From: Acidimicrobiales bacterium | GTDB taxonomy: Bacteria > Actinomycetota > Acidimicrobiia > Acidimicrobiales > JACCXE01 | Reading direction: 5' to 3' | NCBI GenBank assembly: GCA_035546775.1 | Contig: DASZWD010000070.1 | Span: 1 to 34,584 of the forward strand | Length of the DNA: 34,584 nt | Shown: in pieces, positions 27,221-29,215 of the stretch | How positions within the stretch are numbered: position 1 is the first letter of the stretch | Layout of the letters: every line of letters begins with the position of its first letter | Notes under the pieces: generated by a model | Databases searched by the model: none | Told to the model about the DNA's origin: nothing | The model's input: only the letters and a program-made list of their open reading frames with translations | Program-made: the position numbers and the translations under genes

Positions 27221-29215
27221 CTATGAGTAGTTGGGGTCCGTCTTGACGGCGACGAGGGCGGGGCCGCCGCGGACGGCGAAGGCTTCGGCGAGCGTCGGGG
27301 CAAGTTCCGCCGCCGTGGCGACGGTGAAGCCGCGGGCCCCGCACAACTCGGCGTAGGCGGCGAAGTCCGGGTTGTGCAGGCTCGTCTGCCACACGGCGCG
27401 CTGGGCGCCGATCTGTTCCTTGGTGATCTTGGCGAGCTGGCCGTTGTCGAGCACGACGACGACGATCTCCATGCCGTACTTCACCGCGGTGGTCACCTCC
27501 GCGAGGTACTGACCGAGCCCGCCGTCGCCGCACACCGCCACGACACTTCTGTGAAGGATCTCCCGTCCGGAGGACGGACGATCCTTCACAGAAGGGCTGT
27601 TGGCTGGTGGGTGCAGCGCGGACCAGGCGCCCATCGCCGCGGGCAGGCCGAAGCCGATCGAGCCGAGGTAGCCCGACATCAGTACGTGCTGACCGCGCTT
27701 GGTCTCGAAGTAACGGCCGAAGGCGTAGGTGTTGTTGCCGACGTCGACGGCGATCACTGCGTCCTCGGGCACGGCGTCGCCGAGGGCGTCGAACAACGAC
27801 GCCGGATGCAGCGCCCCGTCACGTGACTGGGCGCGCCGCGACGCCTTCTCGGTGCGCCACCGCTCCCAGCGCTTGGCGATGGTGTCGCGCTGCTCGGGCC
27901 GGCGACGCGCCGTTGTCGCCTCGCGCAGCATCTCGCACGTGACGGTGATGTCGCCGAGCAGGGGCACGTTGACAGCGTGGAACTTGCCGAGCGTCATCGG
28001 GTCGAGGTCGACCTGGATCGTCGGGATGTAGGTGGCGATGCCGGTGTGGTCGCTGAACGACGCCCCGAGGACCAGCAGCGCGTCGGCCCGTCCCATCGTG
28101 ATCGACGCCACCGGGACACCGGAGCGGCCGAGGACGCCGCACGCCAGGGGGTGCGTGTCGGGCACGAGTCCTTTGGCCTTGAACGTCGTGATGACGGGCG
28201 CGTCGAGGTGCTCGGCGAGCGCGATCACTTCGTCCTCGTGGCCGCGAGCGCCGTTGCCCACGATGATGACGGGGCGTTGCGCGCCCTCGAGCAACGCCAC
28301 CGCCTCGGCGAATTGCGCGCGCGGCGGCGCCACGTCGGTCGCGGCGACGCGGCCGACGCGCGGACGGGCCGGCGGTTGGGCGACGCCGTCCCACTCCTGC
28401 ACCTCGTCGGGAAAGATGAGGTGGCCCACGCCGCGCTCGACGATGGCGTGCTTGCAGGCCAGCGCCATCAACTCGGTGGCGTTCTGGGGCCGCAGCACCG
28501 TCTGGCTCCACGTCGTCACCGCCTCGAAGGCCGACGCCAGCGGCACCTCCTGGAACGTGCCGGGCCCGAGTACCTGTGACTTCACCTGACCGGTGAGCGC
28601 CAGCACGGGCGCGCGGTCGACCTTGGCGTCCCACAAGCCGGTGAGCAGATTCGTGGCGCCCGGACCCGCAATGGTGAGGCACGCCGCGGGACGGCCGGTG
28701 AGCTTGGCGTAACCGCTGGCGGCGAAGGCCGCCGCGCCCTCGTGGCGAATGCCGATGTAGCGCAGCCGCCCGTCGTCCTCGGCGCGGCGCAGCGCGTCGG
28801 CGAGGCCGAGGTTCGAATGGCCGACCATGCCGAGGACGGTGTCGACGCCCCAGTCGCACATCACGTCGACCATCTGGTCCATCAAGGACGGGCGAGTCTC
28901 GAACACAGGTAGCTGAACGAACAGTGCACCGTCACGTTCCTCGACGGGGTACGACGTCGCCGCGTCCTTGAACCCGGGCGGCGGCGTGCCGGTGACGGGG
29001 TCGTACTCGTAGGCGTGCCACGGGCAGATGAGGTAGCCGTTCTCGATCTGGCCGTCGCCCAGCGGGCCGCCCTGGTGCGGGCAGTGGTTGTCGAGGGCGC
29101 CGTAGCCCCCCGACGTGCGGGTGACGCACAGCGCGCGGCCCTCGACCACCACGGTTGTGAGCCGACCGACCGCGAGGCCGGCGACGGGCAGCGGGTACCA
29201 GGCGACCTCAGACAT
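27221..29215 (-). CDS. Rieske [2Fe-2S] domain fused to ThDP-dependent enzyme
   Basis: A 664-aa protein. Residues 1-105 form a Rieske domain with both ligand pairs (C45-x-H47, C64-x2-H67: NHCPHQGG, ICPWHAYEYD). Residues 110-664 are a complete acetolactate synthase/pyruvate oxidase-type enzyme: catalytic Glu in IRHEGAAAFAASGYAKLTG (about 159), the PYR domain, a central domain, and the ThDP motif VVAVCGDGG ending in DNGQLAKI. A fused Rieske unit suggests electron transfer linked to decarboxylation of a 2-oxo acid. Just before GDGG, some 20 residues (SVKDRPSSGREILHRS and flanks) are extra, encoded by a 49-bp palindrome at 27546-27594. ATG 29215 overlaps the upstream gene by eight bases. The substrate is unknown. 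Confidence 0.87.
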   Translation of the reverse strand: MSEVAWYPLPVAGLAVGRLTTVVVEGRALCVTRTSGGYGALDNHCPHQGGPLGDGQIENGYLICPWHAYEYDPVTGTPPPGFKDAATSYPVEERDGALFVQLPVFETRPSLMDQMVDVMCDWGVDTVLGMVGHSNLGLADALRRAEDDGRLRYIGIRHEGAAAFAASGYAKLTGRPAACLTIAGPGATNLLTGLWDAKVDRAPVLALTGQVKSQVLGPGTFQEVPLASAFEAVTTWSQTVLRPQNATELMALACKHAIVERGVGHLIFPDEVQEWDGVAQPPARPRVGRVAATDVAPPRAQFAEAVALLEGAQRPVIIVGNGARGHEDEVIALAEHLDAPVITTFKAKGLVPDTHPLACGVLGRSGVPVASITMGRADALLVLGASFSDHTGIATYIPTIQVDLDPMTLGKFHAVNVPLLGDITVTCEMLREATTARRRPEQRDTIAKRWERWRTEKASRRAQSRDGALHPASLFDALGDAVPEDAVIAVDVGNNTYAFGRYFETKRGQHVLMSGYLGSIGFGLPAAMGAWSALHPPANSPSVKDRPSSGREILHRSVVAVCGDGGLGQYLAEVTTAVKYGMEIVVVVLDNGQLAKITKEQIGAQRAVWQTSLHNPDFAAYAELCGARGFTVATAAELAPTLAEAFAVRGGPALVAVKTDPNYS
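27546..27594. repeat. 49-bp palindrome inserted in frame within ThDP-enzyme gene
   Basis: Outer arms CTTCTGTGAAGGATC (27546-27560) and GATCCTTCACAGAAG (27580-27594) are perfect, followed inward by two mismatches, six more base pairs (CCGTCC/GGACGG) and a three-base loop. It lies between the PYR-to-PP junction ALHP and VVAVCGDGG, adding about 20 residues without a stop or frameshift. This is a small palindromic element in coding sequence. Confidence 0.85.

Follow-up and report, generated by a model that had tools for sequence, protein, structure and literature searches.

A 49-bp palindrome lying in frame within an enzyme gene of an Acidimicrobiales bacterium is likely (probability approximately 0.7) to represent a mobile palindrome in solo, non-autonomous form that is spread by a cognate, putative EDxHD nuclease. 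It was found in the window, i.e., the whole analyzed stretch of DNA (34,584 nucleotides), and belongs to a family of which two other copies in the same genome (G000) bracket a nuclease gene. This pair, which was beyond the view of the original prediction made on the window, points to the candidate mobilizer. That the palindrome is mobile is well supported, with the reservation that no close strain pair was available in which an empty site could be read to the base or a recent jump observed. The role of the nuclease as mobilizer is inferred, and its binding to and cutting of the palindrome have not been shown.

The host protein of the window copy consists of an N-terminal Rieske [2Fe-2S] domain followed by a three-domain ThDP enzyme, and its best solved homolog is the pyruvate oxidase of E. 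coli. This Rieske-ThDP fusion is conserved: orthologs in about ten other genomes align with it over nearly the full length. The original prediction had described a palindrome inserted in frame into a ThDP enzyme without the introduction of a stop, and this held exactly. The palindrome (CTTCTGTGAAGGATC-TCCCGTCCGGAGGACGGAC-GATCCTTCACAGAAG; Table 1) has perfect outer arms of 15 bp and an inner stem of 6 bp, and the open reading frame is kept through it with zero stops, so that the protein reads ...SALHPPANS-PSVKDRPSSGREILHRS-VVAVCGDGG.... The predicted gain of about 20 residues was confirmed in part, as the element itself corresponds to 17 codons and the larger figure counts the neighboring PPANS. 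The peptide was also correctly predicted to be missing from relatives: it is absent in all 11 orthologs compared, which stem from other genera and share 56–70% identity with the window protein over long stretches, and in the E. coli enzyme. The nearest ortholog, encoded in genome G009, has AWAATRGSGRKVVSVSGDGG at the insert position. The claim that relatives run directly from helix to strand failed, since the orthologs carry a helix-strand loop of about 2–12 residues at this site. Because the length of this loop varies in the relatives, the insert occupies a tolerant loop. Its proposed location near the ThDP pyrophosphate site is supported by sequence order only, i.e., the insert precedes the strand VVAVC, which has GDGG at its far end. 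Most likely, the ThDP enzyme tolerates this copy as a passenger, which extends the protein by a loop of 17 residues with an unknown effect on the enzyme.

Table 1. Positions of the palindromic element, its parts and its host gene in the window, and of the palindromes around two further nuclease genes in the same genome (positions within the named locus).
Feature	Position	Strand	Remark
49-bp palindromic element	27546..27594	.	Solo copy within the ThDP enzyme gene; 25 copies in genome
Left outer arm CTTCTGTGAAGGATC	27546..27560	+	CTTCTGTGAAGG minus its first base nearly invariant in 25 copies
Right outer arm GATCCTTCACAGAAG	27580..27594	+	Perfect complement of the left arm
Inner stem CCGTCC (27563-27568) / GGACGG (27572-27577) with 3-nt loop	27563..27577	+	Covaries between copies
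51 nt, exactly 17 codons, (P)SVKDRPSSGREILHR(S)	27545..27595	-	Inferred net gain: the element with one base per side
Host gene, Rieske domain and ThDP enzyme (pyruvate oxidase/acetolactate synthase-type), 664 aa	27221..29215	-	
Palindromes around nuclease gene, L125	716-766, 1707-1751		
Palindromes around nuclease gene, L137	711-757, 1695-1745		

A search for further copies in G000 (3.75 Mb, 75 contigs), which the original prediction had proposed as a check, retrieved about 24 more, six of them also in frame within genes; with this result and the absence of the residues from homologs, the original prediction withstood its own refutation tests. Each of the 25 copies is exactly 49 bp long. Positions 2–12 and their partners are nearly invariant, mismatches are frequent at positions 13–17, and pairing is kept almost throughout at positions 18–23, where 39 cells changed on both sides versus 19.7 in shuffles (0/500 shuffles as high). 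The half-modules in columns 13–17 (AATTT, ATCGn, CTTTT, ATTTT, and GTTTT) often differ between the left and right arm of a copy, which looks like an exchange of halves between copies. As a single strand, the window palindrome forms a hairpin of -47.6 kcal/mol (z = -8.4; none of 200 shuffles was as good). That the insert is a palindrome arisen by chance, or a variable loop of the usual kind, without any link to mobile DNA can on these grounds practically be ruled out. The variable loop length in the orthologs is in favor of such a reading, but it was already refuted by the copy number, i.e., by 25 copies of fixed length with near-invariant arms, and it is further contradicted by the fold z-score and by the same peptide pattern in unrelated proteins.

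Copies with exact arms were not detected in 58 sampled relatives. A looser pattern with the same spacing revealed palindromes in eight other Acidimicrobiia genomes (395 genomes searched), and the reversed control pattern had no match in the same search. Palindromes containing CTTCTGTGAAGG in the Phycisphaerae MAG CSMAG_386 (JAUVGW01 contigs) were set aside as relatives, as they belong to a repeat of approximately 95 bp with another core. This repeat has many copies, often at contig ends, and is probably unrelated; because the 12-mer in common is a palindrome in its own right, the agreement is likely due to chance or convergence.

Seven of the 25 copies are embedded in genes that show a strong third-position GC signal and whose frame stays open on both sides of the copy. 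Besides the window ThDP enzyme, the host genes encode two CoA-transferase family III proteins, an AMP-ligase (copy placed just before the SSGTTG motif), a CCG-domain protein, an ABC permease-ATPase fusion (copy in the linker), and one protein without a Pfam match. All but one of these seven use the frame encoding nSVK...LHRS (nSVK-x9-LHRS). Apart from the pair around the nuclease gene, the remaining copies with one exception are found 2–14 bp from the 3′ end or stop codon of a gene, often between convergent genes, and in several of these cases the TGA of the element itself ends the neighboring reading frame. The exceptional copy (L053 3001-3049) is located a few bases before GGAGGGGTGGCAGAGCGGACGAAT, where a serine tRNA gene appears to begin. 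No target-site duplication of 1–11 bp was found at the copies. Among the 50 pooled flanks, T does not occur directly left of the element, and the next position is C in 34 of them. Two of the three frames of the element are free of stops on either strand. An inserted unit of 51 nt, a length inferred without sight of a base-exact empty site, would explain how the in-gene copies keep the frame. Such an insertion would add a multiple of three nucleotides, and this together with the two stop-free frames would make surface loops, linkers, and sites behind stop codons tolerant of it; other, gene-breaking insertions would be lost by selection.

Additional evidence came from a species of the same genus (G001). 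It contains a different palindrome (TTCTTGTAACCG...), which shares the core length of 47 bp with the window family and is present as one pair around its own nuclease gene and as six solo copies. A third palindrome (TTCTGAGTGCG), also with a 47-bp core, occurs in four places of this genome. One of these is the ortholog of the CCG-domain gene (L229, G001:C341:987-1490), at the same spot as the G000 element. Sister species have thus received palindromes of two families in one and the same loop, which marks it as an insertion hotspot. These observations also bear on an alternative in which the repeats serve the host as regulatory hairpins, as terminators, or as operators of an AbiEi-like protein and were duplicated and kept for this function, the in-gene copies being accidental. 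In agreement with this alternative, most copies immediately follow a stop codon, frequently where two genes converge, and fold as stable hairpins. It is nevertheless highly improbable, because the seven copies within coding sequences have no apparent regulatory role and the orthologs lack the insert where checked, the CCG-domain gene of the sister species harbors a different palindrome family at the corresponding spot, no family in Rfam matches the palindrome, and the sequences differ among the nuclease lineages.

The nuclease gene of G000 (G000:C37:26553-27575, locus L049) is located between two palindrome copies that are 1,019 bp apart, and genomes G241 and G089 likewise have a palindrome pair about 1 kb apart around the same kind of gene. 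The encoded protein of approximately 320 aa has an AbiEi-like N-terminal part and a C-terminal Vsr-type MTES_1575/DUF559 domain. Residues E214, D245, H263, and D272 are invariant in 18 nuclease proteins and correspond to the EDxHD pattern of homing endonucleases. Profile matches were obtained to PDB 3HRL (1e-11) and to 3R3P (4.7e-6), a “mobile intron protein” which we take to be I-Bth0305I, the founding EDxHD homing endonuclease; the match to Vsr was marginal (0.2). Membership in the EDxHD group is thus supported by the E-D-H-D residues, and the Vsr-like fold is inferred from sequence alone, without a fold prediction. In two cases, palindrome and gene overlap: the C-terminus of the G000 nuclease (AFCEGSPVLNTEFPSQK) is supplied by the palindrome (L049 4020-4071), and in G089 the nuclease gene takes its stop codon from the palindrome (L106 3851-3899). 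A search of plasmid and phage records and of viral contigs with one nuclease query returned no relative. An association of such nucleases with palindromes or inverted repeats was not described in the open-access literature searched (DUF559, MTES_1575, AbiEi_4), with subscription journals lying mostly outside this search.

In the proposed mechanism, the cognate nuclease, probably as a dimer, would bind the two-fold symmetric palindrome and cut DNA. EDxHD enzymes have been reported to dimerize on targets of nearly 60 bp (PMC3943268), which suits a two-fold palindrome of 49 bp. The break would drive copying or moving of the palindrome to new sites without a target-site duplication, and the moved unit may be either the palindrome alone or two palindromes together with the gene. 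A nuclease is not obviously able to join DNA ends. This step would thus require host repair or a second protein, and we envisage host repair in this role.

The association extends beyond this genus. For each nuclease gene, a flank score was calculated from the match of its left flank to its own right flank. In a first set, drawn partly from genomes already known as palindrome carriers, 18 of 26 assessable loci reached p ≤ 0.01 when compared with 748 swapped pairs. The second set comprised 20 genes from other Actinomycetota genomes, selected on ORF length without prior sight of their flanks, and 11 of these had matched flanks. Overall, 28 of 46 nuclease genes had a flank match with a score ≥20, compared with 0.7–1.2% of random windows in other loci. 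Below this threshold, several of the other 18 genes have visible, diverged repeats (pairs at L154, L201, and L125) and others have none. The matched repeats are mostly perfect or imperfect palindromes of about 45–65 bp, with a few less symmetric ones; palindromic flanks recognized by eye include those of L126, L144, L153, L209, L210, L212, L214, and L215. One lineage (G218, L153) has the pair and no solo copy. Likeness among palindromes tracks likeness among nucleases (Mantel r 0.41, p 0.0002; 25 loci). However, the G000 nuclease is only 25–28% identical to those of G241 and G089 despite the common TTCTGTGAAG palindrome ends, and distant nucleases with agreeing palindrome ends indicate that cospeciation is not strict.

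The main rival to a mobilizing nuclease is an unrelated transposase that moves the palindromes in trans, with the nuclease gene being a passenger as in a composite transposon. Several observations are compatible with this scenario: the flanking palindromes occur in both direct and inverted orientation, as expected from separate insertions, solo copies outnumber cassettes, and the G000 nuclease clusters apart from the nucleases with the most similar palindromes. On the other hand, a passenger would not belong to a single protein family at more than 28 independent loci from many genera, and each lineage has a different palindrome that co-diverges with the nuclease sequence. Moreover, no RAYT-type Y1 transposase (Y1_Tnp, PF01797), as known for REP elements, was detected in 12 genomes, with 5 of 14 control genomes being positive. 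Finally, nearly all perfect TCTGTGAAGG sites in G000 form part of a 49-bp palindrome, so a longer insertion element with these ends is absent from this genome. We therefore consider a transposase acting in trans improbable and regard the nuclease as the better candidate.

Among known systems, the arrangement is reminiscent of REP/RAYT units (REPtrons), in which palindromes lie behind genes, the enzyme is encoded between two copies, and both co-diverge (PMC2817692, PMC3733652). Shared features are short palindromes of species-specific sequence that are dispersed singly, mostly just past the 3′ ends of genes, a repeat that both brackets a dedicated enzyme gene and occurs solo (met in L049 of G000 and in G001), and the co-divergence of repeats and enzyme. 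In contrast to REP/RAYT, the enzyme is a Vsr/DUF559-type (EDxHD) nuclease and not an HUH tyrosine transposase, GTAG is absent at both ends of all 25 copies, which instead end in CTTCTG/CAGAAG, and the palindrome is nearly symmetric, 49 bp long, and frequently inserted in frame within genes. For the features tested, the element thus resembles a REPtron in its workings, but without the defining enzyme and the GTAG tag it cannot be counted as one.

In-frame palindromes of Rickettsia have been known for decades, and to our knowledge no mobilizer of them has been identified. The original prediction had likened the behavior of the window element to that of these Rickettsia palindromic elements (RPE), and this was supported: as described for RPE (PMC10969869), in-frame insertion affects genes of unrelated proteins (7/25 copies) and produces a recurring peptide. 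The window element differs from RPE in its length (49 bp versus about 100–150 bp), its sequence, and its host, which belongs to another phylum (class Acidimicrobiia), and is thus not considered a member of the RPE family, although RPE sequences were not aligned. A further difference is the candidate mobilizer gene, as none has been described for RPE in the literature searched; RPE-related CGTC repeats reportedly have no dedicated transposase (PMC3733652). With EDxHD homing endonucleases (I-Bth0305I; PMC3943268), the system shares a sequence-related nuclease domain (3R3P), the E-D-H-D residues, and a long symmetric site, but it has an AbiEi-like N-terminal domain and many palindromes dispersed over unrelated sites instead of one homing site. 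Like IS-family MITEs, the palindromes are small non-autonomous repeats, but they lack a target-site duplication, are fixed at 49 bp, and have no parent transposase with matching ends in G000.

These data permit a bolder reading, in which nucleases related to homing endonucleases and not to any transposase, each combining an EDxHD (Vsr/DUF559-type) domain with an AbiEi-like DNA-binding domain, constitute a phylum-wide class of mobile elements that spread their own flanking palindromes as solo copies, including in-frame entry into proteins. We lean towards this joint claim, with only a slight margin over its negation. With a palindrome-bracketed nuclease in species after species, the question of what moves the palindromes becomes directly testable. 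If the reading is true, RPE-like palindromes would have the kind of mobilizer they have so far lacked, and a function would be at hand for many genes listed as DUF559 or AbiEi antitoxin. The data also suggest that many actinobacterial genes carrying the annotation DUF559 or “type IV AbiEi antitoxin” are not part of defense or toxin-antitoxin systems but are selfish elements, and they show palindrome insertion as a route to new loops in proteins.

Two variations of the basic arrangement were observed. Firstly, G000 holds two more nuclease genes that are bracketed by other palindromes, with the ends GTGTGC and TTCTTCTCAG, and these pairs (L125 and L137; Table 1) indicate that several such elements coexist in one genome. 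Secondly, two nuclease genes of genome G003 have several tandem palindromes on a side instead of one (L140 2462-2575; L149, both sides).
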